Assembly: GCA_037447655.1 (NCBI GenBank)
Contig: JBBHKE010000140.1
Location: forward strand, 185,248-249,247
DNA: 64,000 nucleotides
Reading direction: 5' to 3'
Origin: Zygnema cylindricum
Lineage: Eukaryota > Streptophyta > Zygnematophyceae > Zygnematales > Zygnemataceae
The notes beneath the pieces are model-generated. The model had not been told where the DNA came from and did no database searches. It worked only from the letters and a program-made list of their open reading frames with translations. A program made the position numbers and the translations under genes. Of this stretch, positions 15,958 through 55,760 are shown one piece after another (within the stretch, counting starts at the first letter, position 1; every line of letters begins with the position of its first letter).

Positions 15958-15985
15958 CTCCCCTTATTTTCTAGTCTACTTCCTT

Positions 15986-19141: not shown

Positions 19142-19863
19142 CGCGAATCTGAACCGTGTAAAATATGTTTTGATCGGACGCCCGCCATTGTAGCCGCCAC
19201 GCGAAGTGAGCTTTTGGCGGCATTTAGAGATAGCGTCACGCGGTGCCACATGGCGCCACATTATTTGATACTGGAGAAGATGGGAGGAGGAACCATGGCT
19301 CCCGATTTCACAGGTGTCACCTTGAAGACCATGTGGTACAATGGCCGTACAATAAGTACATTTCCTATTGTACCTTCTTGTACTATATAGTGTCCTTATT
19401 GGACTAGGGTTTAGTAGTAGGTAGTCGTGAGTAGGCAGACCAAGACTTAGTGATATTTAGGTACCTATCTCTAAGAGAGCTTGTAACTATAAAGGTTATC
19501 TTTGACCAGCCATAACTTAATGCTCGGGTGAGCAAATTCAGTGATTCTTTTTGCTACGGACTCAGGGGAGTCTAGGCTACACAGGGAAGTAGTCGGTCAG
19601 AGGTTTTTGCGTGTCAGGGTGGCACTTATTCAGTGGGAAAGTCAAAGTGGGGAATATTGCCCAAAACACATATTCAAGCTTTGCATTTTGTGGTGGAACT
19701 AGGCACACACAAGGTCTTATCTTCACAGGGGTGAAGGTGTATTGGGGTTTTGATTATCAAGGGATCATTCATTTAGGTTAATATCAACTTGGAGTCGGCA
19801 CTATCTAGATTAGTTTCTTTTGGATCTGCGAATTCTGTGGGCAATGGAGCCCATAGAATTTCA

Positions 19864-23996: not shown

Positions 23997-25128
23997 AGTT
24001 ATGGGCCCACCATCTCGGGTGCCCATATTCAATGGAGCAAGCTTCATATACTGGGAAAGTATGATGACAGAGCTCTATGTGAGAAACGGTTTTGGGTAAT
24101 AGTGAGTGGACGGGTGAGGCGCCATCCAATCTTGGGATACCTCCAGGGTTTACAAGAGGCAGATTCACTAGAGATGCAGATCCATCTTCAACGGAGGAGA
24201 CAAAGGAAGGAGAGGTGGTGGACAAAAGAAAAGAGAAGGAGATGACAACACCAATAGCAATTGGTTCGGCATTCATGTCACCTATTCCGAGGAACGAGGA
24301 GAATGACACTGATACCTAGGACTTCAACAATATGGCGGCAAAGCACTTCATCCTCCACCATCTTACTCAAGGACTTGCATGTCCTCATTCGCAAGTAGAA
24401 AGGGCATCCCATCTTTGGATGGTTCTCATACAGATGTAAAGAAGTGGTACGAGCAACAACAGTTAGCTGATCAAAAAGTTAAGGAGTATTTATACAAAGG
24501 AAGGAAGATGTTAGATTTTTGCAATGAGCTTGCTACACTTTTCATAGAGCTAGAGAGTGCTGGAAAAGATTTTAGTGAAAAACTAAAGGTTAACTGTCTA
24601 CTGATGAAGCTACCCGATGAGTTCGAGAACATAGTCAATCGTGTGTAGGACTTGCCGGACTCAAGGTGGATATCGAACTCAGTGGTAGGAATGATTCTCG
24701 TTCGGGAGAATACAATTGAGATCCGAAGGGGAGGAAAGAGTGGGCAAGCCTTGGTAGCTGGGACCGACTGGAGGAACAAGGATTCTCGGAGACCGATCAA
24801 AAATTACAGAGGCGGGGAGTAGAAAAATCAGACCGACGAGTTCGGACCAAGGGCTCCCAATGGTTTATGTCATTTTTGTAAGAAACCAGGGCACTATATG
24901 GCAGAGTGCACTAAGCTATCCGAGCTTGGGTTAAAGGAGGGGCAGACCGGTGGAAACACGAGAGGAAAGAAAAAGGCCCTTGTGACACAGGTACATGAGG
25001 TGGAATCCAAAGACGAGGACGATGAGCTCCTATTGGATGAGGAGTTCGAAGCGACAAACGAGGTAGAAATTTCACGAAAGCAGAAATGTGTTTTAAGTGG
25101 ATTGAAAGGTGAAGCTGGCTGGATTGTA
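23979..25128 (+). pseudogene. Element D gag
   Basis: Collinear with the gag of A but interrupted by frameshifts and stops near 24320, 24440, 24648 and 24822. Unlike A, its zinc knuckle is complete (CHFCKKPGHYMAEC near 24870-24911). The acidic spacer and the GWIVDSGAS junction to protease are open, showing that Gag and protease are one continuous ORF in this family. Confidence 0.88.
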
Positions 25129-26330
25129 GATTCAGGTGCCTCCATGCACATGTGTAAGGATAAACACCTGTTCACTAAGATAAGAAAGATTCCCACTGTA
25201 GAGATAGAGTACGGGGATGGGAGGATAGTCACTACTACTGTTGTAGGATCGGTAGATCTGAAAGTATTGGTAGAAGGAAAGACATCCATAGTTACATTCT
25301 CCGATGTATTGTTTATTCCAGAGCTGAACAAAAACCTCATCTCTATGTCTGTATTAGATGATAAGGGTTTTGATACTAGCACTAAGAAAGGAGTCTCTAC
25401 GCTAGTTTTGAGGAGGAAGTTTATTTCACCGCTGAAAAAGGTAGCCAAGGGATGTTTAGGCTAATTTTAAGCAATGAAAAGAAGAAACTTTATTATGGTG
25501 GTGTTCATGATATAATGATGTGGCATAAGAGGCTTGGGCATGTGAATCTAGATAAGCTAAGAGAGATGAAAAAGATGGGAGTGGTGGAAGGAATTCAATT
25601 AAGTGAGAGTGAGTATCTAAATGATTGTAGTGGATGTGCTCAAGGTAAAGCACACAAATTGCCCTTTCCCAAAACAGCCACCTATAGGGGAGAAAAAATT
25701 CTAGATCTAGTACACACAGATATTAGGGGACCAGCCAAAGTGCCCTCACCGGGGGGGAAGAGATTTATGATGACTATCAGTGATGATTGGTCTCGGTATT
25801 CCAGGGTGTATTTTTTGAAAAACAAGTCAGAAGCTCATGATTGTTTTAGACAATAAAAAGCATGGAGCCAAAAACTCCATGAAACTCTAATCAAGAGAGT
25901 AAAGAGTGACAATGGTGGAGAGTATACTTCTAACCAGTTTGAGGATTTTCTAAGGGAAGATGGAGTTCAACACCAAAAGACAGTTCTAGAAAACTTGGAA
26001 TAGAATGGGGTAGCTGAACGATTAAATATGACACTGAGTGATAGTGCTAGAAGTATGTTGTCGGATAAGAAGATAGGAAAAAGGTTTTGGGTAAAAGCAA
26101 TGAACTGCGCTAATTACCTCAAAAATAGAGTTGTTACCTCAGCTATAAAAGATCAAACACCTTATAAGAAATGGTTTGGCCGAAAACATGACATACCTCA
26201 CTTAAAGGTTTTCGGTAGTCAAGTATTCAGTCTAGATAGAGATCGATCTAATTGGAAGCTAGATCCTAAAGGAAAACCGGGATACTTATTGGGATATGAT
26301 GAGGATGTTAAAGGATATAGAGTTTAGGAT
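25110..26330 (+). pseudogene. Element D protease and integrase
   Basis: Protease with the catalytic DSGAS and CKDKHLFTKIRKIP, then DVLFIPELNKNLISMSVLDD. After a frameshift near 25440 the integrase follows: finger region MWHKRLGHVNLDKL with CSGCAQGKAHKLPF, and core blocks DLVHTDIRGPAKV and SDDWSRYSRVYFLKN. A stop at about 25854 and another near 26001 break it. The distal part has FWVKAMNCANYLKNR and LKVFGSQVFSLD. Protease active-site residues are intact. Confidence 0.88.
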
Positions 26331-26390
26331 CTCAAAAGGGAAGATATAATCTTAGTAAAACATCTAGTAGTTATAGATGTAGGAAAGTCC

Positions 26391-28324
26391 GTGGATCATT
26401 TCAAGTATACAAAGTTAATAAGAATCAGATTTGAGTCAGAAAATTCCGATGACTTTGAGCTTCCTAACTATCCAGGTTTTAGAGAAGATGACATTTTTAC
26501 AGGTACAAATCAGACCGAAAAGGACTCGGCTGCGGAAACTCTAGTGACAACTCTACCCGAAGAGGAACACGTGATGGAAATTGCTTCGGAATCAAGGGAT
26601 AGGGGAGAAGCCGAGATTGTTCGAAAGAATCACGAGAACCATCTATTCCGACCATAGATTTTGAGGGGGGAAGGAGAAGTAGCAAAAGATTACAAGAAAA
26701 ACAGGTTAATAACAAGGTAACAATACTATCTCATCAAGATGAACCTCAAACTTATGGAGAGGCGATGACTTTTCCATAAACGAACTAGTGGAAGACAGCC
26801 ATCAATGAGGAGATGGCCTCAATTATGGCAGCCAATACTTGGGAGCTCGTGGACTATCCACCTAACCAAAAAATAATCGGTTGTAATTGGGTTATCAAAT
26901 TAAAACTGAACCCGGATAACACCATTGAGCGTTACAAAGCCCGGATAGTGGCAAAAGGATTTACACAGAAAGATGGAATCAACTACAAGGAAACCTTTGC
27001 CCCGATGGTCAGATTTCCCTCCGTCCGCATACTTCTCAGTCTAGCAGCAACGCAAGACATGGAGGTGCACCAGATAGACATTAAGACAGCCTTTTTGCAT
27101 GGAGAATTGGAAGTGGAGATCTTTATGCGACAACCCGAAAGATTTGTGGAGGAAGGAGAGGAGAGTAAGGTATGCCGCCTGATTAAATCCCTTTAAGGTT
27201 TGAAACAGGTTCCTCGACATTGGAATAAGAAACTTAATGAGTTTCTTACCAGTCTGGGATATATATGGATCAGCTGAGATCACTCAATCTATGTTTTTGA
27301 AGATGAGGAAGGTATTATATTTATTGCAATTTATGTTGATGATTTGCTTGTTTTAAGTAAATCAATGAAAAAATTTAATAAACTAAAAACCAATCTTAAG
27401 AGGAGATTTGAAATGAAGGATATGGGGGAAGCAAAATATATTTTGGGAATTCAAGTAGAAAGAGACCGAGAAAAATAGATTGTAAGATTGACTCAAAAGG
27501 AAGCAATAGGGAACAAGCTGGAAAAATTTCAGATGGATAAAGCTAATAGTTGTACAACTCCAATGGAGTTAAAGAAGGGAAATGAGGGGAGTGAGGAAGA
27601 AGGAGTCATAGTCTTAGACGACGAATTAAGTCCTGAAGAACAGAAGTTCATGCAGATTATTCCTTACAAGCAAGTAATGGGAAGCCTAATATATTTTATA
27701 AATTGTACCCGGCCAAATTTAGTTGCAGCTGTAGGAGTGTTGAGTAGAAGTCTAAATGCTCCCACTAAGAAGGATTGGGAGGCAGCTAAGAGAGTCCTTT
27801 GATATTTGATAGGAACTAGGGATCTATGGTTACATTTGTGTGGGGAGAATACTGACATCACTACTTGGAGTGATGCCAGTTATGGTGATGCTCCAAGGAG
27901 ATGTACATCTGGATATGTATTACATGTGGGTGATAGGGCTTGCTGTTGGAGTAGCAAACAGCAAAAGGTTATTGCTCAGTCCACCATGGAGGCTGAGTAT
28001 ATGGCCTCTAGCTTTGCTCCAAAAGAATTGATAAGGGTAAAGTCTTTGCTTGGTGAGCTAAGTCACCTTAAGAGTGGTGTGCAAATTATTTTTTGTGATA
28101 ATCAGGCAGCGATCATTATTTTTGCCAATCCTAAACATCATTTTAAAGCCAAACACATGGACATTAGGCTCACCTTTGTTAGAGAGAAAGTAGAAAACAA
28201 AATAATCAGTCTGAAGTACCGACCAGATAGCGAGATGGTGGCAGATATGATGATCGAACCTATGCCTTCCCCTAAGCTATTTTTCTGTAGGGAGAAGTGT
28301 GGTCTGAAATTAAAGAGTGATTAG
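26391..28324 (+). pseudogene. Element D reverse transcriptase and RNase H
   Basis: The same domain order as in A: linker, RT with SIMAANTWELVDYPP, NYKETFAPMVRFPSVR, AFLHGELEVEIF, YVDDLLVLSKS near 27335, then RNase H with STMEAEYMAS and DNQAAIIIFANPKHH. Stops or shifts occur near 26657, 26779, 27196, 27277, 27478 and 27802. At the codon where A has TAA, D keeps CAA (Gln), confirming that the A stop is secondary. It ends at 28324 before the polypurine tract. Confidence 0.9.
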
Positions 28325-28337
28325 AAAATAAGGAGAG

Positions 28338-29386
28338 TGTAGAAATTGATGGTTCTTTTAGTATTTTCTAGGTCTTAAATAAAGTGCAGAAAAAGAAGCC
28401 GAGGCAGTCTGACTCTAACTTCTCTTTCCAACTCTCACACTTGTTGCAGTCACCAAGAAGTTGGAAAAGAAGCTAGTGTCAAGGCTGCGTATGCTATCCA
28501 GAGATTTACGGGGTAGTAAAGTAGTTAATTTACTAAAAGGAAGTTGTTGCCTAGAGGATTTGATCGTGGTACCTACGGATAGGTAATGCTGCCGGTAGCC
28601 GGTAACCTCATCCATTTAGTCTAAGATTAGTGGTAAATGATATAGAGTGTATTACATATATAAACGTTAACATGTAGGCTAATTCATTTAACAACAACTA
28701 TATACGGGATATATAGAGTCAATTATAAAAGTACGGAATACGAGTACGAAAAATAAATAAGTACCGCGCATTTGTTTCGATATCGAAACAAATACATCGC
28801 AACTATTTATGACAGCTACGATTGAAATCGACATTCAATCGGACGGTCGGAAAGCATGCCGAGATCGCGGAAGAAGATTTCGGCGGTTTATGGTGGCCGC
28901 CACATCGGATGACACGTGGCACCACGACATTGGATTTCGGCATCTCTAGGGATTACGGAAACGAATCCAAAAAAGACACGTGACAACATTTTTGTCATGT
29001 CGTACAATGTTCGTACATAAAGTACACCAGCAGCTGTACCTTTTTGTACGGTACAGCAATACGATTGGTGCCGTAAATCACCAGATAGAGTTTTAGAGAG
29101 AGATAGGACTTAGAAAAAATTGGTAGATAGGACCCTCTCTCCCAGAGAGCTTCTGAACAAAAGGTCAACTTTGACCCTCCATAACTTACGGCTCAGGGGA
29201 GCAAATTCAGAGATTCTTTTTGCTATAGACTCAGGAGAGTCTTACCTTCACATGGGCGATAGTGGTCAGAGTTTTTGTTTGTCAAGGTGGCGGTTATTCG
29301 TGCTGAAAGACAAAGGGGTCAGGGTTATCTTAGAGGCTTCGTGTGAGCTGCTTACTCTGAGGTCCTATGGAGGTCTCAGAGTTGCA
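28338..29386 (+). repeat. 3' LTR of element D
   Basis: 1049 bp, starting TGTAGAAATTGATGG directly after the polypurine tract AAAATAAGGAGAG and ending GAGTTGCA. Confidence 0.92.
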
Positions 29387-30538
29387 ACATTGTTATTAAG
29401 CTTTAAGCCTTATTTGAATGGGCATTGTGGCTGATATTTGGTTTTATGATTGTGTTTAAAAAATCGTATATGGGCATCGATGTTACAAAAAACTGAACAT
29501 TAAGCACACGAAATCATACTTTATCGTCGAAACATAAGGGAAAAAGGTTCGTTGTTATCAATATACTCAACGGAAAGGTTTTTATTCAAAATAGAGATTC
29601 ACCATCTCAAATACATTCTTCTTAATATAGGTTTAAAATTATATTTCTAACACTTTATGTAAATATTGAGTGGAATGACTTACCTTGCGGTTAACCTCCC
29701 ACTACCTATATTAACTAATATTCGACACTTTGATACCAAAGTCAGTGACAAATGCCTAAAACCTCCTTTCCCTTTAACGTGACCGTGCGTTGGACCAAAT
29801 TCCGTATTAGAATACTACGTACTACTAGATTATATTGTTAATGATTAAGCACCTTTTACCACGCATGAAAAAACAAACGCAACAATAACCAGATCAAACG
29901 AAAAGCAACGAAAATTGAACCACGACACATAGAAAAGCTTTTATGTACTGATAGGTATTGAACCGCGATACATAAAACTAGACAAGGTACGCATATTGCG
30001 AGTCAACTTTTGAAATCGAATCGCACCACGCTTATCGAAGCATTGTCAAATACGTCGATAGCCGATTCACGGTGAACCTAACATCGTGAACTTAACAACT
30101 TTGACTCTTGGCCACGCGTGCATTCAGATGATATACGCGAATTTCACCTTTATTAGGACATAGTATTAGAATTTGGGCGGAGGACGCATGTTTTGTTTTT
30201 GTATATAGGGTATAGGGTAGTTGTATACGCTACCGTAGTCATATTGTTTCCTTTTGTAATTTTGCTTGTCTACTATTATGTTTAACGTACGTAGGGGTTT
30301 TCACCTCTAACGTTTAATGGTCGTCAACAATGTTGCATTCCAATCATGCTTCGTACATAAATAGTTCAACCATTGCTTTTTTCGGAAATAAAATCTCCTC
30401 CTCACTGTTGACAGTTATCAAATTATCAACATTTATAGGCTCAAGCGATATATATGGAAAAGGTTGCGAAATCGATGAAGGTATAATTAAAGATTTGTTG
30501 ATCCCGAATTCTTCCCATTTGCAATACGAGATTTTTCC
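29387..30538. other. AT-rich intergenic DNA
   Basis: No gene, repeat or terminal-inverted element recognised. Open frames are short and in no family I know. Confidence 0.5.
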
Positions 30539-34101: not shown

Positions 34102-34614
34102 TAACTCAAATTTATTTCACGTAAAAATAGGTATTGTTTAATTATTGTTAATTAGGGTACGACCCCAGGTACTTGTTACTTAGCGAACTTATTTTGTTTT
34201 TTAGCGCTGGTTCGGCGGACCCGGAATTCTGGTGTCTCTATGTGTTTACTCGAAATTGTTACTTAACTTTGTGACGATTGTATACGTCGACAATGCCCGT
34301 GACAGCTACACACGTGTACAATATGTCTAGCCGCACCGTATTTTTTTTAAAAATTTTGAAGCGTCGAAAGACGCAACGTAATTTTGAAGCGATTTGGTTT
34401 GTTGCATGTCATTGCGTGACATTGAAGATGTACAACCTTGCAGCCGTGATTGTACAACATGCCTGTTGAAAAATAATAATTAATATTCACTTCTTAATTT
34501 AGACTGTAGAGTGAAGAGAGAGGGAGAGAGTCACCATGGCTGCCGCCATATTTAGAAAGAAACAGGCAGACAGGCAGACACATTGATAGATTGCCAAAAT
34601 GTTGCCTTAAACAA
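34102..34614. other. Non-coding; holds a dispersed repeat
   Basis: No gene. About 34196-34310 is a diverged inverted copy of 45090-45205, which lies inside the Harbinger-like MITE at 44469-45246, so this may be the remnant of a related MITE. The end (34505-34614) contains a GAGAGA-rich stretch. Confidence 0.5.
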
Positions 34615-38856: not shown

Positions 38857-40111
38857 CGTTTCAATTACTGCTACATCGGCATATCGCGTTTATATCGTCT
38901 ATTTTATTGATACGATGTTACTCAAAATAGAGTAGTTAATCACTCAATTTGTTGTTGGTTGGTTTGGTCCTTAGCGGCCACAAGAGTGTTTTAATTAACA
39001 TATTTTTCATACGTTAAGAATATTTCTAACCTATTAAGTTTTACAAATAGAACGACGACTACGTTTTAAATCGGCTATAATAGAAAAAATACATTTGGTT
39101 TGTGTTAAGTTTTAGTTTTTTTATATAAACCAAAAACATTAACTAAAACTTTTTAATCTAACATAATTGTTGATAAAAAAAATGAAAGTGGATCATATCC
39201 ATATAAAATTGGTGTGTGTGTACACGATATCAAACTTAATCATGAAGAAAACACATTGTGCGACAATTTTTTTTTATTTTTTTGTGAGTAATAATTAAAA
39301 TGAACATTTTGTGAAATACGAAACAAAAAACATTAACCTCGACAATAATAAAGGTTACGTGTATTCTTCTAACAAAAAAAAAATAGGTTATGCGATTATG
39401 TTAATGCCTATCAAATAAATAAACAAAACAAAAACATAAAAATATTAAACAAAAGCCATTTATAAAAACAAAATGTAAATAAAATTTGATAATAGTTAAT
39501 CGTTGCTTTTATTTTCGTTAATATTATCACAAAACGAAAAATTCAACAAAGTTTGACAAAAACAACGACTGCATTTTTAATCGACCACGATAGAGAAACT
39601 ATATTCCGTTTGTGTTAGGTTATATCTTATTATATAAACCAAAAACTATAACTAAAATTTTTAAATCTTACGTAATTGTCGATAAAAATAATCAAACAGA
39701 ATCGTATACACATAGAATCAATGTGTGTGTGTAAACGATATCCAACTTCATCATAAAAACACATCAGGGGACAAATATTAAAGAATTCTTTTTGTGAGAA
39801 ATAATTAAAATGAATATTAAAAAAAAAAAACAAAAAACATTAACTTTGGCAATATTAAAAGTTACGTGTTTTCTTCTAACAAATCACAAAACAAGTTATG
39901 AATTTAAATATACTTACTAAGTAAATAAAAGAACAAATAAACAAAAACACATAATAGGTCGAAACTAACAAAATTATAAACAAAATCATAACGGTGTTTG
40001 AATTTCTAAAACTTCCAACTTAAACAAACAATACATGTTTTTACAAACTTTCAAAAAGCTATAGAAAACACCTTGATAACAAGTGCCAAAAACGTACGAT
40101 AAGCTACCATT
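38857..40111. repeat. AT-rich stretch with two 510-bp tandem copies
   Basis: Units of about 39000-39510 and 39511-40020 are diverged direct copies; shared blocks include AACGACGACTACGTTTTAAATC/AACGACTGCATTTTTAATC-like sequence, TATATAAACCAAAAAC, and GTGTGTGTGT with CGATATC. No coding region is seen. It lies downstream of the Crypton C-terminal exon. Confidence 0.7.
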
Positions 40112-40963
40112 TTATTTTTTTTTGTTTTCAGTCGCTAACTTCCTTGATAAATCTCGAAGAGTCCATTTGTTCATTGATTGGCGATCTTGCAACCTGTCCA
40201 ATGCCGTACTCAATGTTACAGCATTCACTTTTGCTATTCTTTCGACTTCTTCCCAGATGACTCTCCAATTATAAAACTTTCGATATTCTCCTCTCCTCCA
40301 ATCACGTCGACAATCACCTGATTCCAAATCCACAATAGAAGGGAGTCCACCTATACCATCGTGGTATGCTCTCCACACATCTTTTGCGGTGTGTAACCGG
40401 GCTCCAATTTGAGTCATTAAAGAAACTTGATTCGACATGTTTTGTCCAAATGTTTCAGTTTTACTCACCGTTTCTACATGAGTTTCATGTCGCCCGTCTT
40501 CACTTCGAGGAAGATTCCGTTCCGGAGTCCCGATTCCCATAGCTGATTCACTTTCTGATGGTCTATATGGAGTATGTGGAGTTCGAGAAGGCTGTCCTTC
40601 CTGAAACGACTCTCCGTGACTGTCCATTTTCCTAATAATATGATCCAATTTTTTATCCATATTTTCCATCTTCTCTTTCACATAGGATAATGTCTCTTTC
40701 ATGCTACATATTTCTTCTCCCATAATGTCAGTATTTCTCCCACATGTTTGACTCCATATCAACAAAGAGTCAACTGATTTGCCAACTTATGAAATAGTAA
40801 TAGGAACATTTACTTCAGCATCAACGATTGAAGCCCACATGTCCGTTGTTTTTATACATGTATTTTTCACCTCGTATTTAAATGACGACCACAAAGGAGA
40901 TAAGAACAATTTATGAGTAAAGATAGGAAGATTAGGAAATTGATCTTAGAAAATAACATGGTC
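40112..40963 (-). pseudogene. Crypton exon: LLQD-like spacer and GCR1_C domain
   Basis: Begins after a canonical acceptor (TTTTTTTACAG). First comes a DHVIF, DQFPNLPIFTHKLF block resembling the 'LLQDA..FP.HP.F' spacer of fungal Cryptons, then a coiled-coil-like stretch (SMKETLSYVKEKMENMDKKL). The C-terminal GCR1_C-like domain follows: TAKDVWRAYHDGIGGLPSIV, DLES, WRRGEYRKFYNWRVIWEEVE. This domain binds DNA in yeast Gcr1 and in Cryptons. In-frame TAA codons at 40946-40948 and 40787-40789 interrupt it. From 40765 to 40112 the frame is open for 217 codons. Confidence 0.78.
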
Positions 40964-41571
40964 CTGTAAAAAAACTTTTTTTAACCATAACATAGTTTGC
41001 AAAAAAAATTGAGCACTTAAATCTCTTTCAGATTTGGAAGCTCGAGAATTTTTTTTGCAAAAAAAATACATTTGTATTTATTTAATAAAAATCACTTGAG
41101 TATTAAAACACGAAAGGAAAAAAAAGTTAGAAAAATAAATGAGATGGAAATAGAAAAAAAAACAATGATAATAAAAAGAAAATTGAAAAGCTATAAAAAT
41201 TAACGATTAGTTAGAAAACAAACAGAAAAAAAAAGAAAACGTAAAATTATAACAACATAAAATACATACAAACAAAACAAAAATCACAAAGTCAACAAAA
41301 AAAAAAATACGGAGTTTAATGAAAAACAACATGTAAATAACAAAAAAACAAAACAAAATCCCAAAATAAATAAATAAACCATACTAAAATATATAATAAT
41401 AACGGAAAAAAGAAAAAAAAAACAATAAAAAAATAAGAAAGATATCAGAAAATAAATGATAGAAAAGAAAAATAGTAAATTAAAAAAACTCAATATTCAC
41501 AAAATAAATATACAAGCTAGTTAGAAAAAAGAAATCACACTAAATTCAAAAATGAATCGAACTAATATGTT

Positions 41572-41813
41572 ATTGAATATACAATAAGAAATATAAAATA
41601 TTATAGAGAAACTGTGATAAAACACAAAAGACTAAAATTACTTATCATAACAAAATAAAGATATAAATGGTGAATGTTATTTAAAACATACCATTGAATA
41701 TACAATAAGAAATATAAAATATTATAGAGAAACTGTGATAAAACACAAAAGACTAAAATTACTTATCATAACAAAATAAAGATATAAATGGTGAATGTTA
41801 TTTAAAACATACC
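41572..41813. repeat. Perfect 2 x 121-bp tandem duplication in intron
   Basis: Copies 41572-41692 and 41693-41813 appear identical. The unit includes the splice donor region of the Tyr-block exon, so a second copy of the donor (acatac on the plus strand) lies inside the intron. Confidence 0.9.
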
Positions 41814-42050
41814 ACAGGAAGCTCTGCATATGCCGTTTCGACCCACGGCCAAAACATGGCACAAAGAGTAGAAGGGGGTTCCACTCTCGAACGAGGTAAG
41901 AAATATTTCCTTGAATTGTTTTGGTGGCCAGAAGCTTGAAGTAAAATGTCGGTTGGTAAATCAGTAACATAAGAATAGGAAAAATGGTCGGATGTCCAAC
42001 GTCCCATCACTTTGATGGCTTCTCGATCAGCACCAAAACATTTACCAAAA
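41813..42050 (-). pseudogene. Crypton exon: catalytic Tyr block
   Basis: Reads ADREAIKVMGRWTSDHFSYS then YVTDLPTDILLQASGH, followed by SRKYFLPRSRVEPPSTLC and FWPWVE. The Tyr in the GRW...YVTDLP context is the expected nucleophile, and the RxYFLPRxRVxPP segment is characteristic of the region after the recombinase domain in GCR1_C-bearing Cryptons. It ends at the donor GTATGT (plus-strand acatac, about 41807-41812). Confidence 0.8.
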
Positions 42051-42110
42051 AAAAAGTCAAAATATAACTTTGGAAATAATTATCATAAAACACACCACAA
42101 AAAAAGTCAA

Positions 42111-42314
42111 AATATAACTTTAGAAAAAAATATTATAAAACACAGACAATAAAAATAGACTATATCAAATAAATTCATAATTAAAAACAATTGATGAATT
42201 TAAAAAAAAACCAATATAACTTTAGAAAAAAATATTATAAAACACAGACAATAAAAATAGACTATATCAAATAAATTCATAATTAAAAACAATTGATGAA
42301 TTTAAAAAAAAACC
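42111..42314. repeat. Perfect 2 x 102-bp tandem duplication in intron
   Basis: Copies 42111-42212 and 42213-42314 appear identical. A shorter diverged relative (aatataactttggaaataatta) precedes them at 42061. Confidence 0.9.
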
Positions 42315-42402
42315 TACTCCCTCGTTGCCAACATCATTGCTCCTTGTCCACGACCGGCATGCGTTTTGTGGGATAACGAAATGTTTTTGAGTTTGAAAGT
42401 TT
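42315..42402 (-). pseudogene. Crypton exon: HxxR box
   Basis: Reads ISLSHKTHAGRGQGAMMLAT. The HAGR at 42350-42361 is the catalytic HxxR motif, in the 'KxTHAGRGxGA' context typical of Cryptons. A donor-like GTAGGT follows at the left end. Confidence 0.78.
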
Positions 42403-42531
42403 TTTTTTATGTATTGGAGCTGCGTGTTATAGCAAAGAGGTTGCATAAAAGTTGTTTATTTTCCTTCTCTATCTTTGGCTAAAACTCTTTCTTCTGTAAA
42501 GGGTTCACTGTACCAAGCTTCTTTCGACGAA

Positions 42532-42641
42532 AACTTTGGAATTATATTTTTATTGGTTGCTAGCTCCCACCTCCAAAAAAATTGTAAACTTTGGAATTAT
42601 GTTTTTATTGGTTGCTAGCTCCCACCTCCAAAAAAATTGTT
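42532..42641. repeat. 2 x 55-bp tandem duplication in intron
   Basis: Units 42532-42586 and 42587-42641 differ at about one base (atatttt versus atgtttt). Confidence 0.9.
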
Positions 42642-42818
42642 GGGCCACAGCACCTACAAGGCAAATAAGAAAATCCAAATGGCGCATGCATCCGATAAAT
42701 TTTGCACGACTATTCCGCGGATAAAAAATACCATAAAAAATAGTAAAAAAAAAAATTGTATTTTTTATCCAGTTATGATTTTTAAAAAAATGTAACAAAA
42801 CACAATTTTATGAAAGAG

Positions 42819-42874
42819 GGAGAGGGAGAGGGAGAGGGAGATGGAAAAAGAGGGGGAGAAGGAGAGGAGAAGAG
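42819..42874. repeat. GAGGGA purine microsatellite
   Basis: Imperfect (GAGGGA)n tract in the Crypton intron. Confidence 0.85.
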
Positions 42875-42892
42875 AAAAAAATTGTAGTTTTA

Positions 42893-43058
42893 TAGATAAC
42901 TTATTGTATTAGTTTTCCTATTTCTTGTAACCATCGCCAGAACAAGACCTTTGTCCGGCCCAAGATAAGGAAGATCATATGAGAAAACAACTGCTAATTG
43001 GGCATTTCTGGAATCATCGCCGCGACTGAGACATGCATGATTCATGATAAATTGACTC
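42893..43058 (-). pseudogene. Crypton exon: catalytic Arg box
   Basis: Begins after a canonical acceptor (T-rich tract, then TTTGTAG) and reads SQFIMNHACLSRGDDSRNAQ, LAVVFSYDL, then VLAMVTRNRKTN. This is the Crypton pattern 'LLGH..L.RGE..R...L.DLF ... GKTN', which carries the first catalytic Arg and the Lys of the tyrosine recombinase fold. The 3' donor is less clear. Confidence 0.75.
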
Positions 43059-43421
43059 CTACAAAAAAAACAAAACAAAATATTAAAAAGATAAAAAATG
43101 ACAATATGATTTCTACGTTTTAAACATTTTTTTGAATTAACTTTAAAAAACTTAAAAAAACCCTAAAAAACTTAAAAAAACCATGAAAATTTATAAAAAA
43201 ACCACAAAAAAGTAAAAAAAAACGAATACAAAAAAATAGATAATTGAAATAAACTAAAAAAAAACCAAAGAGAAAGCAAAAAAATGAAACCCTATCGCAA
43301 AAAAAATAAGAATAATCAAAAATTGAAAAGAAAGGCACACGATAAAATACAGTTTAAAGTGGGAAACGAACATAAATAGATTAAAAGCAAATACAAAATT
43401 TAGTATTTTATGAATACATAC

Positions 43422-43590
43422 CTCACTTGAACACAGGTGTATGGCTCCATCCCCAATTTTTTTTCCTTGTGCTTTCTTTCGGCCAACTTTAACCAAAATA
43501 TTGAAAACCCTTTGAAATCTTCGAGAGAATACGCTTCTCTTATACCTTCTTGGCGATCTTCATGGTTATTCTTTTTAAAATTTGAAGTAT
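43422..43590 (-). pseudogene. Crypton exon: region before catalytic Arg
   Basis: Reads EDRQEGIREAYSLEDFKGF then IFWLKLAERKHKEK, matching the YTPxDF...FW segment that precedes the first catalytic Arg box in Cryptons. It ends at a strong donor: exon ...GTGAG followed by GTATGT (plus-strand acatac at 43417-43422). Confidence 0.65.
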
Positions 43591-43675
43591 TTTTTTTTTA
43601 TTATTGTAAAAGTTTTTGAATGATATTGTTTCCTAAAAGGTTTTCACCCCCCCCTCTTTTTATAGCTAACTGAGT

Positions 43676-43995
43676 TTAATATTCGTCTTCGAGTCTTTTC
43701 ACCCATTGTATGAGTGTGTTGTAGCTCTTATCTTTGTTATTCTCTAATAGTCCAATAACCCCATCAGGTGTAATAGCTACATTTGGGTGTCCTTGTCCAC
43801 TCCAAAAAAATTCATACTGATTTAAACCGTTTCTATAGGCTGATGCAGTGTTCGGATTACGTTGTTTTAAAGTGTCTCTAATAATACGTTGTCTTTCTGA
43901 CTCGCTATACGGTGGTGGGATTTTTATTCCTACATTGCTATCATCATCATCTAAGTGAACTACCTTCTGACAGTTTCCAAATGTGAGCCCTAATA
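43676..43995 (-). pseudogene. Crypton exon: recombinase N-terminal core-binding domain
   Basis: Reads YSESERQRIIRDTLKQRNPN, TASAYRNGLNQYEFFW and a GVIGLLENN to LIQWVKRLEDEY stretch. This resembles the SAM-like DNA-binding domain that precedes the catalytic part of tyrosine recombinases (helices with an N-T-x-x-x-Y pattern). The minus-strand frame extends upstream to 44227 through low-complexity sequence that is probably intron or 5' sequence; an acceptor-like 'ctgtcag' lies near 43970. The frame closes with a stop at 43676. Confidence 0.7.
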
Positions 43996-44468
43996 CAATA
44001 CTATGTATAATTTGGAAAATTCGTTTACGCCAAGAAAACATTATAAAGACAAAGAAAATAATAATAAGAAAATCCTCTAAAAGATGTAATTCAAAAGAAA
44101 AAATGTTAAAAGAAAAACGGGTGAAAGAAGGAAAAAGTAAAAGATGGGAAAAAGAAAAAAAAAAACGCTTCGCGCGATAATTTCTGTCGTTATCAAGTAC
44201 TACGAGGGATTTGCATTGCCCGGGCAAAAACCTCCTCGAAGGTCTCCGCCGCCCGCCAAATAGACCCTCCCCCCATTTAGGATTAGCTGCAACAAATTAT
44301 ATCGTGCGACTGATTCTGTGTCAAGTGGAGATCCACTTAAATTAGGGTAAACCGTCCATTAGTTAGTGCGTATTGTCGCACATGAGAGGGCGATATAATT
44401 GGTACGCGATGCCGGTACGCAACACTATCGCCATTGTAGCAAAGAGAGCTTGTCACGTCGTAGAGTTA

Positions 44469-45246
44469 GGGTGCGTCTCTGTGTGTTTAAGTAAGGGTTT
44501 TTTTCTGTCGTTTTCCTGTAAAACTTAGAGCCGTACCGCGTAAATTTCATCCGTACAATAAAATAGAAAAAAAGAGAAGTACATTTTGCGTCATCATCGA
44601 AGTTAAAATGTACTACATCTTGTCGTCTTGTGTTCTTCGACCACTTCGACGACAAAAAACGTCATCTTCAACCTTATCTTTAAAATACAGGGCCGATGTG
44701 TTTTAAAATTAGGGATTTTCTATAAACAAATAGGAACACGTATTCGCACGTGTAATATATTGTTCAAAAAATTCAAACGATTTCAAGCGACGTGGAAGTG
44801 TGCACGATTCGCTATGTTTTGTCCGTTTTTGTTTAATACGACAAAGAGAAGTACACAGTTTGTTTTGTTTTGTCCGTTTCCATCCGGTACGGGATTTTTT
44901 TTTGCAGGGGTCTCAAGGTTCCGATGCCATTTCACGTCGAGCCGACAATAGACGCAAAGTCAAAACGCATCTTCTTCAACCGTGAAACGGCACAGGCTGG
45001 AGGGCGGTAGGTCTACAATGTCACGAAAAGTCACGTGAAGTCACAAGCAGTTACGAAAAATGACGTGGGTCATCACAGATTGTAGACGTTGACAGCCGTC
45101 ACGGGCATTGTCGACGTATACAATCGTCACACCCTAAGTGACAATTTCGTTTGGTACACATAGGGACACCCGAAATCCGGGTCCGCCGGATCTGCGCTAA
45201 AAAACAAAAAAAAATCTCTAAGTTTGAAGTACATAGAGACGCACCC
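44469..45246. mobile_element. PIF/Harbinger-like MITE
   Basis: 778 bp; ends GGGTGCGTCTCTGTGT and ACATAGAGACGCACCC flanked by TTA at 44466-44468 and 45247-45249. The TWA duplication suggests PIF/Harbinger. No transposase is seen. Its right third is a diverged inverted copy of 34196-34310. Confidence 0.82.
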
Positions 45247-46157
45247 TTAGTAATAAACCACAAAAACTGGTATTTGGAAAACAAATAGCAAACAACAAAC
45301 AAAAAATCAAAACAGCATTTTTCGAAACTATTTTGTTAACTCGCATTGCTGTACTTCAACGTCGCTCTCCCTTCTTCCGTATATTCCGGCAGCTTCCACC
45401 GCATTTCAAAAACGTGTCACATTGCCTCTGTCGTTATCCAGTCCACTTCGAAATCCCGTCAGCCGTCCCGAAAACGACAAAACTCCTGCTTGAAATTCCA
45501 CTCGAACAATCCCAGAAAACGACACCCGACTGACTGATCCTTTCCCACCCATGTTGACCTTCCCCAGATGTACCTTCCCCCTGTTGACCGTCCTTACCAG
45601 TCAAACGTGGCCCTCTCCAAACTCCCCCCCCCCTGGGCGCTTTTCTCCTCCGCCCCACCCGACCCGACCCGCGGCCCGCCCAGCCTCGCCCGTCCGCCGA
45701 ACGTCCAACGGAAGCGTCCCTCGGACGTCGCCTGCGCGTCCAGCGACCGACCGTTGGCGCGCCAGCAAACAAAATGAAATGTACCGATTCTAATTAACCG
45801 CCCAAACCACTCAATACTCGCGTATTTGCTAGTCTCTCCGCCAGCTTGCATATACTTCCGCGGATAAGATTCTCTCTCTGTCCCCCCTCTTGCACTTCCT
45901 GTCTCTCTCTGCTCCCCCCCTCGCGTTTCTTTTCTCTCCCTTCCAAGCCTCTGGCACCAAATCTAAGTGTGATGTACGGAATAGAAGAATCCCAAGTCGT
46001 ATCCGCCAATAAAAGTAGGCGAGAAAGCTCGACAGGGAGAGAAAAGAACAAGGACGGCAGGGAGAGGTATAAACCGGAGAGGGAGAGAGAGCGTTTTACG
46101 GATATCTTACCTCCTTACCTCTCCTTCTGTTTTTGGGAAATACTAGACTGGCTTCCG
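45247..46157. promoter_or_regulatory. GC-rich region upstream of the kinase, with TATA box
   Basis: A C- and CG-rich block (about 45590-45730) and CT-rich tracts precede the kinase. A TATA-like box tataaac lies at 46068-46074, about 85 bp before the chosen ATG, which is a plausible core promoter. Open frames on both strands here look like composition by-products. Confidence 0.5.
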
Positions 46158-47393
46158 ATGGGCCCCTGGAACCGAGTATTCCCTGACGCTCCCACGAATA
46201 TCGCGGAAAGATATTCGTTCGAAAAGGGAGAGGTGGGAAAGGGGTACTGCGGGACGGTTCGAATTTGCCGAGATTTGTCGACAGGGGAAAAATTCGCCGT
46301 AAAAACGATTTCTAAAAACTTTTTGGCCGAGGTCGAGGAGAGGGAGGAACTCAAAAGGGAAGTCCGAGCGCTGCAGATTATGAAGGGGACCAGAAATATC
46401 GTGGATTTAAAAGAGGTTTTCGAGGACTGTTTTTCGATTTATTTGGTGATGGAGCTCTGCGACCGCGGCGAATTATTCGACTACATTCTGAAAAGACGGA
46501 ACATTCCGGAAGACGAATGCCGGACTCTGTTCCGCCAAATCCTGGAAGCTGTCGACCGCTGTCACAGTCTGGGGTGGATGCACCGAGACATAAAACCGGA
46601 AAACATTCTTATAAAAGGAAGAACTGCCCAGGAAATACCTTCTCCTTCTCCTTCTTCTCCTGTACGGATGAAAAGGAAGGTTCCTCGACGGACAGGAGGA
46701 GGCAGTCAGCAATCCTCCCCAAAAAGTGTGCTGTTGGTCGGAAATCACGAGGAAGCTTCCTTAGGAGATTTTAAGCTTCCAGGGAGCAGCTTCTTGGAAA
46801 GTTCCGACGAGGAAGACGAAGTAGAAATAGAGGGAGAGAGGGAGGGAGAGGGAAAAGACACCAGTCTTCTTCGGGGAAGCTGCCAGGAAGCTTCCCTGGG
46901 GGAATACGAGCTTTTATCGGGAAACTGCAGCAGCGGCAATTACCGGGAAGCTTCCAGAGAAATGTCCGGAGTAGTTTCTGGGGAAGTTTCCGGGGGAGAT
47001 TTGTGTGTAAAGCTCGCCGACTTCGGATTGGCTCTCAACGTGGGCAGGGGACGGAGCGGCAGCGGCATCGCAGGGTCGCCACACTATATGGCGCCGGAGG
47101 TGATCTTCTGTACGGATTACGGAACGGAGGCCGACATGTGGTCGCTGGGAGTGGTCCTGTATGCGATGCTGTCGGGGGATTTGCCTTTCGTGGGAGATGA
47201 CGACGAGGCGGTTTATCGGGCGATAGAGAGTGGCTTTGTGGCGATGGAGGAGGAGGAGGGGAGTTTGTGGCATACTGTTTCAGATTCGGCCAAAAGTGTG
47301 GTTTTGTCTCTTCTGCAAATGGATCCCGGACGGCGGCCGACAGCTGGCGAGCTGCTGGAGCATCCGTGGGTGAAAGCGGAGGTGGGAATGTAG
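46158..47393 (+). CDS. Ser/Thr protein kinase, PEPKR2-like (411 aa), intronless
   Basis: A complete kinase of the CDPK/PEP-carboxylase-kinase-related group without EF hands, so probably calcium-independent. Seen: glycine loop GKGYCG at 27-32, catalytic Lys K49, the helix-C Glu in LKREV at 68, HRD at 142-144 with KPEN, DFG at 288-290, GSPHYMAPE to 314, and the WSLGVVLYAML and HPWVK regions near the C-terminus. Between HRDIKPENIL and DFG lies an insert of about 130 residues (154-283), rich in Ser and acidic residues with repeats of the type EASLGDFKL / EASLGEYEL. The open frame extends upstream to 45846, but the TATA box at 46068 and the pyrimidine-rich leader favour MGPWNRVF at 46158. PEPKR2 is my closest match from memory; other CDPK-related kinases are possible. 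Confidence 0.85.
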   Translation: MGPWNRVFPDAPTNIAERYSFEKGEVGKGYCGTVRICRDLSTGEKFAVKTISKNFLAEVEEREELKREVRALQIMKGTRNIVDLKEVFEDCFSIYLVMELCDRGELFDYILKRRNIPEDECRTLFRQILEAVDRCHSLGWMHRDIKPENILIKGRTAQEIPSPSPSSPVRMKRKVPRRTGGGSQQSSPKSVLLVGNHEEASLGDFKLPGSSFLESSDEEDEVEIEGEREGEGKDTSLLRGSCQEASLGEYELLSGNCSSGNYREASREMSGVVSGEVSGGDLCVKLADFGLALNVGRGRSGSGIAGSPHYMAPEVIFCTDYGTEADMWSLGVVLYAMLSGDLPFVGDDDEAVYRAIESGFVAMEEEEGSLWHTVSDSAKSVVLSLLQMDPGRRPTAGELLEHPWVKAEVGM

Positions 47394-48965
47394 AAAAGTC
47401 GACCGAGGTTGACTTTTTTGGTTAGCTTTCATTCCTTTTATTTTTTTGCGTTGCTTAACGAGAGAAAGCGAGGGAGAGAACAAAAGAGAGACTGCAAGAG
47501 GGGGGAAATGGGAGAGAGAGGGAAATAGAGTGGACTGAGGGAACGAGTTGGGAATTTTAGGAAGTTTTGCAAACGGCCAAACTGTACCTTTTTTTTTGTT
47601 TCTAGAAACTTGAGTTTTAAATTTTGTAAAAATGAGGGAATTAGTGGACTGCCACCTGGCAGAATAAGGATATCATGTCCACCAGTAGCCAGTAGGGGTA
47701 TCAACGGAAAAGGGGTATAAAGGGAATCTTAGGATTTTTTTGTAAAGAAACTGAAATTTCAGGACATTTGTAGGACAATTTATACAAATAATAGACTCCA
47801 GTCTCGTCCCCTCTCCCCCTCTTTCCTTATTTATTTTTCTTTTATTTTTGTTAATTTTCAACCGTAAAATACAATTCTTTCGTTTGTTTGACAGTTAGGT
47901 TTATCATTTTTTCAATTTTCTTTTTTACAAAATAATTTTTGTAGAAAAAGACATAGGAGATCTACATGTATGAGGTTCGGTTATAACGGAAAGCCGGATT
48001 TTAATGAGGGACACTTTTCAGATATTTCTGAATCGTGTGAAACGTCCGTTTGGATCAAAATTAGGAAGATTGATTTTTCTCGAGACCAAGTCCAAAGATG
48101 AGCTTTTTATATTTTAATATGTTTGGAATACTTTTCCAATTTAATGTTGTTTCAAGTGTTTAGTTTTCTGATTACAAATCTCTTGATTGGTTGGTTGGTT
48201 GTGTGCAATTTCGCAATTTTGTAATTTTTCAATGCCACCATTTTTGTCGTTTGCTGTTGTTTTTTGGGATTAAAGTTGGTTCTTCTGTTTGGTTCCATGT
48301 TTATTATTTTGTCCCCTTTTCTTTTGGATTCCATGATTTTTTTTGGGTTCAATTCCCCGTATGGTCCTGTCGCCGCTTCTTTTATGTCTTAACCTTTTAG
48401 GTTATTGTGACATCTGTCAACTCCTCTTCCTCTGACTTCTTTTTCTGCCCACATGGTCTTAAGTGCCGTCAGTCCCGTACAATAGTGTCTCCTTCTGTGT
48501 GCGCGAGGCAGAATATCACACGGTCACTTCCCAGTTGGCATTCCAGCTTCATAGCTCTCACACGTGTAACTCTCTATTTGTGTAGAGCAGCTGCATCTGG
48601 TTCTTTTCTACATCTGCTTCGGTGATAGAATCGTAAAAATTGTTTTGTACGGAAATCTGGACTTCGAGTAAAGTCCTGTACTTTTCGGCCTATGGCGTAC
48701 TCCTCTATTGTACTCATAGAAGTCCAATTCGTACGGATTTGGACTTTTTTTCGAAAAACTACGTAGAATTAGCTAATTTCGTAAAATTCGTACGTCTCAA
48801 ATTGTACGGACATTTAAAAAAAAAGAGACGTTTCTTCATTTTCGCGCGCGAATTTTCCTCCACTCCTTCATAAAGAAGCTGCCATTGGAGACGCCATAAA
48901 TTCCTCCATTTAATCTGTCATTGAAGCCACCCTTCAAGGTTCCAAGAACTTTGCCAGAGGCATCC
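47394..48965. other. Kinase 3' region and intergenic DNA
   Basis: No gene recognised. The first few hundred bases are probably the kinase 3' untranslated region. Near 48640-48760 a motif gtacggaaatctggactt / gtacggatttggactt recurs and may be terminal sequence of the hAT element downstream. Confidence 0.4.
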
Positions 48966-50908
48966 ATGCCTAGGCCACAAGGAATCGAGTGGGAGCATGT
49001 CAAGGCTCCAGACGGAGAGCTGCTTGGGAATAACAGAATATGTATCTGTCTATACTGCAATTTCGAATACAATGGTCAAGCAACTAGAATTAGAAACCAC
49101 CTGCTTGGAAATGTGCAAAATGGCGGCATTAGAGCTTGCATTCTATGTCCCGATGAGGTGAAGGCGGAGTTAAACACATCTGAAACCACAAAATCTTCTC
49201 ATGGCTCTCAGAAACGTGTCATATCCGATTTGGATGAACTCACTAAATGTCCGGGATCAAGCCAAAGTAGCAAGGTACAAGGTATTCAGTCGAAAATAAC
49301 AAATATATTTAATAGGCATAACAAGAAGGAGGTGGATACAGCATGGGCAAAGGCTTTATTTGCCAATGGCTTGCCGTTTCGACTATTAGAAGACCAATAT
49401 TTTAAGGCAGCGGTGAAGAAGACCGGGGAGATAGGGCCATCTTATAAGTTACCTCACCGAAATACCATGAGAAATCGACTTTTGTCTGAGACGAAAGCAA
49501 CGGTCACTGAAGATTTGGCAAGCTACCTAGAGACCATGAAAATTACCGGTGCCTCCATCACATCAGACGGTTGGACAGCCGTTGATGACACGCCTCTTCT
49601 GAACATTCTCGCAGTCACCCCCAAAGGAGATATGTTTCTCATGGCTGAAGACACTAGAGGGCAAACCAAGGATGCCGAATACGTTTGTCAGGTGTTAGAG
49701 AAAGGAGTTCTTGCGGTAGGGGTGGAGCATGTGGTGCAAGTTGTGACAGATTCTGCTCCTGTGAACAAGGTTGCTCATGGGAAAGTATCCTTCCATCACG
49801 TGGACGCCATGTTCTGCCCACGTATTAGACCCAATGTTAGAGGATTGGAGTAAGTTGTCATTTATTTCAACACCTGTCCGAGAAGCAAAGGAGGTGTTGA
49901 AATTTATTACGAATCATCATATGACTGCAGCTTTGTTCCACAAAATTTCAGAACTTAGGCTTTCGAAACCTGGAGAGACCAGGTTTGCAGCAAATTTTAT
50001 CATGCTACAGAGGTTTTTACAGATGAAGGATAGCTTGGAGACCTTGATGTTTCATGATGCTTACAAGCAGTGGTTAAGCAAATCTACATACAAGTCAGAG
50101 GGTGCTAAGATTAAAGGCCTCATCTTGAACCCGGAGTTTTGGACGAGAGTGACTGAGGCTGTGACAGTTTCAGAACTTGTGGTGCGGATGATGAGGGAGT
50201 GCGACAAAGGGAGCCCAAATGTGGGGAAGGTTTATCATGGTTTTTACAGTATTGGTGAGTTCTTGGTGAAGTTATCCAGCAATGGAGGAGCGCGAAATTA
50301 TGAAGGCCTGCAGATTTTGGAGGAGCTGAAGGTGTCTTTCATCGCCAGATGGGAGATGGCACACAACCCCATATATGCTGCCGGCTTTGTACTCGATTCT
50401 GAGTACCAAAGTGATGACTATGGTCAACTTTCAAATGTGAAAGTAATGGAAGGTTTTCAAATAATGCTTGATAAGATGTTACCAAATGTGGAGGACCAGG
50501 CTGCTGCCTACAATGAGTTGTCTAAGTATAAAGGTTCTGAGGGCATATTTGGGAGGGAGGTGACAAAGACGTGTGCTAAGTAGATGTCAGGCTGGAAGTG
50601 GTGGCAGCAGTTTGGGGCTGTCACCCCTGTCTTACAGAAAGCAACAATTAGGATCTTTGCCCAGTGCACAGGTTGCCAGCTCATGTGAGAGGAATTGGTC
50701 AACCTACGACCATATTCACTCTAAGAAAAGGAACAGATTGACAGCTAAAAGAGCAAATGATTTGGTGTGGGTCTTAAGCAATCTCAAATTATTACAAAGC
50801 ACCAGGGATGTTAGTTATGAAAAGGAAATGGTAGCATGGGAGGAAGAGGAAGGAGAGGTAGGAGAAGAAGAGTTTGATGAAGTCATGTTTGACATAGATT
50901 TGGAGTAA
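48966..50908 (+). pseudogene. hAT-superfamily transposase, broken
   Basis: The order of parts is that of plant hAT transposases of the DUF659 type. First comes a BED zinc finger (CICLYC, then IRNHLLG and ACILCPDEV). The DUF659/RNase-H-like core follows (ITSDGWTAVDDTPLLNILAV, VVQVVTDSAPV, YPSITWTPCSAHVLDPMLED, KPGETRFAANFIMLQ). The C-terminal dimerisation domain ends it (SSCERNWSTYDHIHSKKRNR, LTAKRANDLVWVLSNLKLL). The frame shifts at about 49780, a TAG interrupts at 50581-50583 before MSGWKWWQQFG, and another stop and shift lie at about 50680. The acidic tail ends at 50908. The ATG may be 48966 (MPRPQG) or 48921. It cannot make a full transposase as it stands. Confidence 0.88.
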
Positions 50909-53783: not shown

Positions 53784-55760
53784 CTATGGGTCTGGAAAAC
53801 CTAAAAATGAATCCAAAGCACGAGCAAAACGATCTGCTTCAGCAGGAGGATAGGGAACTAGTTTTGAAGGATCCAATGAATAAACAATTTTCGTTAAAGT
53901 TTTTGGACTTGCGCAGAGCAAATGCCCATTTTCTTCCAAAATATTGGCAAGTTCTCGTTGATGATTATCCATTAGAGCTTCGTTTACAACAACAACTAAT
54001 GGTTTTCCAGCTCGTAAAGTTTCAAATATGCTTCCAGAACCTGTTATATCAACCAGATAAAAGAGAGCCCAGATTCTATTTAAATTTGGGTCACGCATTT
54101 TTGGTTTTCCAAATAGAGGTCCAGTTCGGCAAAAGAAGGAGAGGCCAGGATAAACAAAGCATAAAAACTGAGCCGTGAAAACTATGAAAAGATAAAAAGC
54201 TCTAAAGGGGGCAGGGGGAGGGGAAGGGGAAGGGGGAGGGAGAGGGAGAAAGAGGTAGAGGGAGCAAATATAGTCGTACTGGGAGCTAATGTCTTCTTTT
54301 GACAAATAATTTTGCTTAATAAAATTCCTACAATTCCCTAAAATCTTCATGATAAAGTAACGGACTTAATTGAGAAGCAGTGGAGGAGAGTGGCGGTGGA
54401 GCACCTGCGTGGCTGATGACCAGCGAGGCTGATTGGACAAACGGCGCCAAAGAAGGCTTAAAGTCAAAAGACTCCACTTGTAAATCTCCAACATCTTCCC
54501 TGGATCGCTGAGTTAAAAGAAAAATACTAAAAAAAATTACTCCAAAAAAAAAACTAAAAGAAGAAAAAGAAAACAACTCAAAGCTTAAATATCACGTGTG
54601 AAGAGCCGCAAAAAATGAAGGATCACAACTGAGAAGGAAAAGAAGGAGAGGAGAAAGAGAGGGAGGGGGAGGGGAGGAGCGGGAGAGGGAGGGGGAAGGG
54701 AGGAGCGGGAGAGGGAGGGGGAGGGACGAGGGAGAGAGGACAGGGGAGGAGAAGACGGGAGAGGACGAGGGAGAGTGAGAGGAGGAAGATGGAGAGGGAA
54801 AAAAGGGAATAAGGACGAGGGAGAGAAGACAGAAAGTGGGATGAAAATAATGAGGGAGTGTATATTAGAACATAATACAGCAATTAATAGGGAAGAGGGG
54901 TTTGCTGCAATCATATTAACTTTAGTGATACGAGAAGATAAAAAAATTGAATAGAAGTTATTTGAGCACAAAGGTCTAAATTGTATCGGGAGGGATGTGA
55001 ATGTTGTACGATTTGGTAAATTGGGAGGAAGTTCATTTGCCGTCCAAACACAATCAAAGCGTTGGAATGAAGGCTGAATGAAGGGCTCAAATTAATCCGT
55101 TCACTGCATTAGAAATGGCGCTACGATAAAGAGGTTTTTGTGTACGGAACTCATATTTAGTCAAATGTGGTATTGAATTTCAAGAACGAAAACTGGAAAA
55201 TATTGCCTGAATTCCAAAACCATTCTTTAAAGTATGAAGGCTAAGACAATACAATGCTTAAATACAAGAAGATTCTCCTCTAACACACAAAAATTCCCCC
55301 CCCCCCCCCGCTTTCTTTCCCGTTCCTTCTCCTCACCTCAATTCCACTTCCCACTTTCCCCCTCCCCCGCTCCTCTCCTCTCCCCCCTCTCTCCCTCTCT
55401 CTCTCCCTCTCTCTCTCCCCCCCATCCCTCTCCCTCTTTGCTATAAAATCATTTTCACCATACCCTTAACCTTTTCCTGAACACGACCGACCTTAAACTC
55501 CTGCGTACCAGACCACCGAACCAAAAAAAGAAAAAAGACTAAACCGAACCTAAAACAAACAACATAAACGTGGACACAATTAGGGTTCAGATTTTTACCT
55601 TTTCCGGAACGTATTTCCCTTTCCCGATTTGAACCAGGAGCTTCTGAAATCCCTTGGAAATCAGCATTTCTTGGAAATCTTGCGAATCGACGGCCTGGAT
55701 CAGACCATCAAACAGTGTGGTGCCAACAGTCACAAAAACAGATCTTCCAGATTCCGCCAT
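53784..55760 (-). CDS. ALG13: ALG13, UDP-GlcNAc transferase catalytic subunit (173 aa, three exons)
   Basis: ALG13 pairs with membrane-bound ALG14 on the cytosolic ER face and adds the second GlcNAc to the dolichol-linked N-glycan precursor. Exon 1, 55599-55760: MAESGRSVFVTVGTTLFDGL, then LLVQIGKGKYVPEK (54 codons, donor GTAAAA). Exon 2, 54405-54507: RSREDVGDLQVESFDF, then SASLVISHA. Exon 3, 53784-54040: GSGSIFETLRAGKPLVVVVN, EALMDNHQRELA, then FLGFPDP and stop. Lengths 162+103+257 bp join in frame to 173 residues, the usual plant size. Splice sites are GT-AG. The glycosyltransferase-28 donor-binding segment (SHAGSGSIFETL...GKP...DNHQ) is intact, so the gene looks functional. Confidence 0.93.
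54041..54404 (-). other. ALG13 intron 2
   Basis: 364 bp. The plus strand carries an AGGGGAGGGGAAGGGG-type purine tract (54207-54265), so the transcript is CU-rich there. Confidence 0.8.
54508..55598 (-). repeat. ALG13 intron 1 with complementary purine and pyrimidine tracts
   Basis: A purine-only-like tract (plus strand, 54640-54840: GAGAGGGAGGGGGAGGGG and similar) and a pyrimidine tract (55296-55437: C13, then CTCTCCCTCTCTCTCTC) lie about 450 bp apart and are roughly complementary. In the transcript the GA-rich part comes first and could pair with the later CU-rich part. Confidence 0.8.

Follow-up and report, generated by a model that had tools for sequence, protein, structure and literature searches.

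A probable inactivated CryptonF-type DNA transposon copy in the genome of a streptophyte alga, probably zygnematophyte-like

Does a streptophyte alga carry a Crypton, a DNA transposon with a tyrosine recombinase, and if it does, is the copy intact? The question is raised by a stretch of 64,000 nucleotides filed under Zygnema cylindricum (GenBank assembly GCA_037447655.1, contig JBBHKE010000140.1, positions 185,248 to 249,247 of the forward strand; the whole stretch is referred to below as the window), in which a reading of the letters alone had proposed an intron-bearing Crypton with a GCR1_C-type domain at positions 40112..43995. We conclude, with a probability of about 0.78, that this block is an inactivated CryptonF-type DNA transposon copy that resides in the nuclear genome of a streptophyte alga, probably a zygnematophyte-like one. 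Six minus-strand blocks between about 44.04 and 40.11 kb together encode a protein that resembles a tyrosine recombinase and continues into a GCR1_C DNA-binding domain. Their order is a putative core-binding segment, a SRGDDSRNAQL box, HAGR, GRW...SYVTDLP, YFLPRSRVEPP and the GCR1_C domain, as the sequence-only reading had described them and at the places where it had put them. Its coordinates are also about right, and the 5' frame reaches an ATG at 44041.

The profile matches carry this conclusion. The unspliced open reading frame (ORF) at 40112-40786 matches GCR1_C (PF12550) in Pfam with E=1.2e-8 and 35.6 bits (curated cut-off 23), while the unspliced ORF at 41798-42079 matches NDC10_II (PF16787) with E=8.9e-7 and 28.7 bits (curated cut-off 26.3), which bears out the proposal of a Crypton-type gene with GCR1_C. 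When the two matching ORFs were reversed letter for letter, neither NDC10_II nor GCR1_C appeared at E<=1, and there were only two sub-threshold matches to other families. A profile search on the joined blocks, suggested earlier as a check, also had a positive outcome: a hand-joined read-through of 672 residues matched NDC10_II at 3.2e-24 over residues 193-410, taking in exon 4, and GCR1_C at 3.6e-8 (Pfam). Because the frames of the read-through were picked by eye, the matches of the unspliced ORFs serve as the unbiased test. Codons for a candidate catalytic tetrad R-H-R-Y were located in SRGDDSR, HAGR and SYVTDLP (Table 1); the assignment is a motif reading, made without alignment to a known recombinase or structure. 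The copy thus shows, with the tetrad read in this way, the R-H-R-Y tyrosine recombinase that characterizes Cryptons and the C-terminal GCR1_C domain that characterizes CryptonF, and since both are present it is CryptonF-type by domain content. A structure prediction of the GCR1_C ORF made without an alignment (mean predicted local distance difference test score 46.2, predicted template modelling score 0.27) is not used as support.

Candidate introns were sought as GT donors and AG acceptors that agree in phase. The presence of several introns is plausible from the sequence, with phase-matched GT-AG pairs at three of the five junctions: a phase 0 pair between exons 1 and 2 with a poor acceptor tract, a phase 2 pair with a GTATGT donor and a T-rich acceptor between exons 2 and 3, and a phase 1 pair between exons 3 and 4. 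To that extent the "good splice sites" noted from the sequence stand; the last two junctions are poor. Between exons 4 and 5 the good phase 2 donor GGA|GTAGGT faces three open-frame acceptors, none of which (0/3) is in phase 2, and phase 1 pairs need donors inside the HAGR motif, whose use would destroy it. Between exons 5 and 6 a strong donor in phase 0 meets acceptors in phase 1 or 2, and a weak phase 1 donor alone fits. The guanine-plus-cytosine (GC) content of the introns is 17-32% and that of the exons 38-45% (five exons measured, all except exon 4, with exon 6 in part). The true start of the conserved frame in exon 1 is uncertain.

Table 1. Positions in the window of the putative exons, candidate catalytic residues, in-frame stops and tandem duplications of the Crypton block
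Feature	Position	Strand	Content and splice sites
Exon 1	43703..44041	-	ATG at 44041; putative SAM-like core-binding segment; donor TGG|GTGAAA, phase 0
Exon 2	43422..43570	-	acceptor AAAAAG|AAT, phase 0 (poor tract); donor GAG|GTATGT, phase 2
Exon 3	42901..43058	-	SRGDDSRNAQL box; acceptor TTTTTTTTGTAG, phase 2; donor TAA|GTTATC, phase 1
Exon 4	42318..42653	-	HAGR, 55-bp duplication, TAA, frameshift; acceptor CCTTGTAG, phase 1; donor GGA|GTAGGT, phase 2
Exon 5	41813..42034	-	GRW, SYVTDLP, YFLPRSRVEPP; no acceptor in phase with exon 4 donor
Exon 6	40112..41040	-	end of NDC10_II-like region, linker, GCR1_C, terminal TAA 40112-40114
Candidate first catalytic Arg	43022-43024 or 43007-43009	-	SRGDDSRNAQL box, exon 3
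Candidate catalytic His	42359-42361	-	HAGR, exon 4
Candidate second catalytic Arg	42350-42352	-	HAGR, exon 4
Candidate nucleophile Tyr	41969-41971	-	SYVTDLP, exon 5
In-frame TAA	42456-42458	-	exon 4
In-frame TAA	40946-40948	-	exon 6
In-frame TAA	40787-40789	-	exon 6
55-bp tandem duplication	42531..42640		two copies 98% alike, within exon 4, shifts frame
102-bp exact tandem duplication	42111..42314		in exon 4-5 intron
121-bp exact tandem duplication	41572..41814		takes in exon 5 donor

The copy looks dead: three TAA codons interrupt its frame, a frameshift falls shortly ahead of HAGR in exon 4, a 55-bp stretch of coding sequence is duplicated, and one junction has no splice pair that would leave HAGR whole; judged from the sequence as assembled, the protein would no longer be encodable. 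The intact reading frame expected of an active transposon copy is absent. An intron-bearing Crypton gene had been proposed without mention of the TAA codons, the frameshift or the duplication: the introns remain plausible, while a working gene is not supported. The three tandem duplications, of 121 bp (100% identity), 102 bp (100%) and 55 bp (98%), cluster within 1.1 kb (41572-42640), and no other array in the window with a period >50 bases reaches 98%. We also considered whether the stops could be read differently. All three internal stops are TAA, as a reassigned stop codon might give; this was rejected, since the standard code leaves the neighbouring kinase frame open over 531 codons, and the presence of a frameshift and a duplication among the lesions counters it as well. 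We know of no reassignment of TAA in streptophytes. Inspection by eye for additional introns gave no better outcome: one that removes the TAA at 40787-40789 creates a new stop, and no room was seen for one around the TAA at 42456-42458.

An intact member of this kind would make one single protein, with a tyrosine recombinase domain that would break and reseal DNA by way of a covalent phosphotyrosine link. By analogy with described Cryptons, the element would be excised as a circle and inserted at a short matching site, recombination would probably act on short terminal direct repeats, and DNA binding would fall to GCR1_C at the C terminus. In the available part of the Crypton survey by Kojima and Jurka (2011; PMC3212892), Cryptons are proposed to leave as extrachromosomal circles and to integrate elsewhere, short terminal direct repeats are given as likely recombination substrates, the conserved tyrosine is said to bind DNA directly, and GCR1_C is labelled a DNA-binding domain. 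Next to the gene on its 3' side, within the same block rich in adenine and thymine (AT-rich), lies a direct repeat pair of about 400 bp (39036-39442 and 39549-39947, 76% alike). Composition and self-comparison suggest that this pair (39036..39947) is possibly part of the Crypton element.

In whose genome does the copy reside? The nearest gene, 2 kb from the Crypton block, is an uninterrupted kinase frame (45972-47393) with a long insert within the kinase domain. Its best named protein matches are from Closterium, a zygnematophyte, and Mesotaenium, which is how we read the genus label Mesen1. In a tree of 39 rows, made up of the window kinase and 38 sequences hand-picked from 120 listed matches, it falls in a clade of 16 rows with support 97/96; the other 15 rows are 12 from Closterium, one from Mesotaenium and two unnamed, and all 8 land-plant rows (8/8) lie outside. 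Identity to any other row in the tree alignment is at most 45%; local matches, which cover about a quarter of the kinase, go up to 52%. The land-plant host suggested in the sequence-only reading is not supported by this grouping, which concerns one gene. The host is probably a streptophyte alga of zygnematophyte-like kind, as far as one kinase gene can indicate; we claim no genus. The Crypton block shares its contig with the kinase and with Copia, hAT and miniature inverted-repeat transposable element (MITE)-like repeats, which stand on both sides of it, and by the assembly alone it is apparently joined to host DNA.

Several points weigh against the explanation as a resident CryptonF-type copy. 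The placement of the host comes from one gene on a long branch (1.22) in a tree of hand-picked rows, and the top-scoring match of the kinase (P0001, a protein without a name) falls outside the 16-row clade. The ORF with the RGDDSRN box (42890-43162) has no Pfam match at E<=1. For the core-binding ORF (43676-44296) the only matches, Phage_int_SAM_1 at 0.029 and YphA at 0.053, fall short of the Pfam cut-offs. No related sequence was found among proteins, solved structures, viral contigs, prokaryote genomes or PHROGs. The 672-residue read-through, compared with 5.8 billion proteins from sources that include nr and NCBI, produced 4200 candidates and none at E<=1e-3, while residues 267-364 (98 residues, from HAGR to past FLPR) produced 22 candidates and none at E<=10; because the prefilter of this search requires shared exact 5-residue words, these negatives bear on close kin only and not on distant Cryptons. 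Among solved structures there were no matches at E<=1. A 329-residue query (exons 2 to early 6, with GCR1_C left out) gave two pattern matches in viral contigs and 13 in prokaryotes (one genome each from 84,980 species), of which none was confirmed, and no match in PHROGs. These searches speak neither for nor against the horizontal transfer suggested in the sequence-only reading. At this single locus neither the ends of the element nor terminal direct repeats were identified, and assembly artefacts could explain some of the frameshifts or tandem duplications.

Three other explanations were weighed, and we consider each of them improbable. The one with the most in its favour is that contaminating DNA of a fungus or oomycete ended up in an algal contig or was joined to one. 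In the part of PMC3212892 available, CryptonF is reported from fungi and oomycetes only; for one CryptonF-like match in a wasp genome, contamination was considered the likely source (PMC4157794, likewise available in part); and two 2-kb intervals over the block have a GC content of 0.30-0.31 compared with 0.36-0.48 in their neighbours. The low GC content is due to the introns and the flanking non-coding DNA, however: AT-richness is confined to introns (0.17-0.32) and non-coding sequence, whereas the Crypton exons, at 0.38-0.45, overlap the Copia and hAT frames of the window (0.39-0.47). Within the 64-kb window the block also has repeats to either side, and the zygnematophyte-like kinase lies 2 kb from it. 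The word-filtered protein search turned up no close protein from fungi or oomycetes, which is a further, weak, argument. We think contamination unlikely.

Even less probable is a domesticated, Crypton-derived host gene comparable to yeast Gcr1, Msn1, Hot1 or Cbf2/Ndc10. Domestication has occurred repeatedly for GCR1_C and for the recombinase region (PMC3212892, available part), and a multi-intron structure would fit a host gene. Against this stand the lesions already described: the three internal TAA stops, the frameshift, the 55-bp duplication in exon 4 and the junction for which no usable splice pair exists. The poorest candidate of all, and very improbable, is a tyrosine-recombinase element other than a Crypton. 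Tyrosine recombinases also occur in DIRS, Ngaro and viral or polinton-like elements, and the available part of PMC4157794 records DIRS-type elements from Viridiplantae; the significant matches here are nevertheless NDC10_II and GCR1_C, and of integrase type there is only the SAM-like match, below threshold, with none from PHROGs. No reverse transcriptase was found in the four profiled block ORFs, nor any DDE transposase, and the other listed ORFs of at least 50 residues were judged by eye. An inactivated CryptonF-type copy in an algal genome agrees best with these results. It is a more tentative step, possible but one we would not lean on, to suppose that streptophyte algae carry their own long-resident lineage of GCR1_C Cryptons, with multiple introns and too diverged for word-based searches, in which case CryptonF would predate fungi and oomycetes or have crossed well beyond them.

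The rest of the window is rich in mobile DNA. A MITE-like element at 44468-45247, which we take to be PIF/Harbinger-like, has inverted ends (AGGGTGCGTCTCT[A/G]TGT) flanked on either side by what may be a TTA duplication, and one of its ends is matched at 34145-34326 (79%). Three Copia-type long terminal repeat (LTR) retrotransposons, at 4978-11422, 14655-19142 and 22945-29402, have apparent LTR pairs that are 93.5%, 99.5% and 91.5% identical, respectively, and stand among many other rearranged copies. A transposase with a DUF659 domain, presumably hAT-like, lies at 48900-50583, its frame broken between two overlapping ORFs. At 53784-54080 on the minus strand is the last exon of a glycosyltransferase-type gene (Glyco_tran_28_C, 1e-8), which we assume to be ALG13-like. 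Rfam at its gathering thresholds and a tRNA scan found nothing in the whole window.

How does the Zygnema copy compare with known Cryptons? CryptonF elements combine a tyrosine recombinase with GCR1_C and occur in fungi and oomycetes, between which transfer has been proposed (Kojima and Jurka, 2011; PMC3212892, available part); the sequence-only reading names the same two groups. In the same part of that paper, the legend of Figure 2 names Chlamydomonas reinhardtii among the tree taxa and Table 1 contains no plant Crypton. A plant transposable element atlas has a row labelled "Crypton" with 535 entries in one column (PMC8729191, available part), a label whose sequences and domains are not visible there. 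Among the literature matches listed, which covered few subscription papers and did not extend to Repbase, no GCR1_C Crypton was described in streptophytes. The copy resembles CryptonF in the order tyrosine recombinase then GCR1_C and in motifs fitting R-H-R-Y. It differs in its apparent streptophyte-alga host, its several AT-rich introns and its decay; no C48 peptidase or mariner fusion was noticed in its profiled ORFs, and the terminal 6-bp direct repeats of CryptonF were not found, its ends being undefined. CryptonS of oomycetes and one diatom is likewise a DNA transposon with a tyrosine recombinase, but it is without GCR1_C (PMC3212892, available part), which the Zygnema copy has. Yeast Cbf2/Ndc10, Gcr1, Msn1 and Hot1, the source of the Pfam names, have NDC10_II and/or GCR1_C in common with it; these Crypton-derived proteins are encoded by host genes, whereas the Zygnema copy keeps the tetrad motifs in a broken gene. 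The element is of a known kind, and its host lineage would be new provided that the join to host DNA and the host assignment hold. In that case the known host range of GCR1_C Cryptons would extend to the green lineage next to land plants, the question of horizontal spread or great age of these elements would gain a third point, and there would be reason to seek Crypton-derived DNA-binding proteins in plants, as in yeasts and animals.

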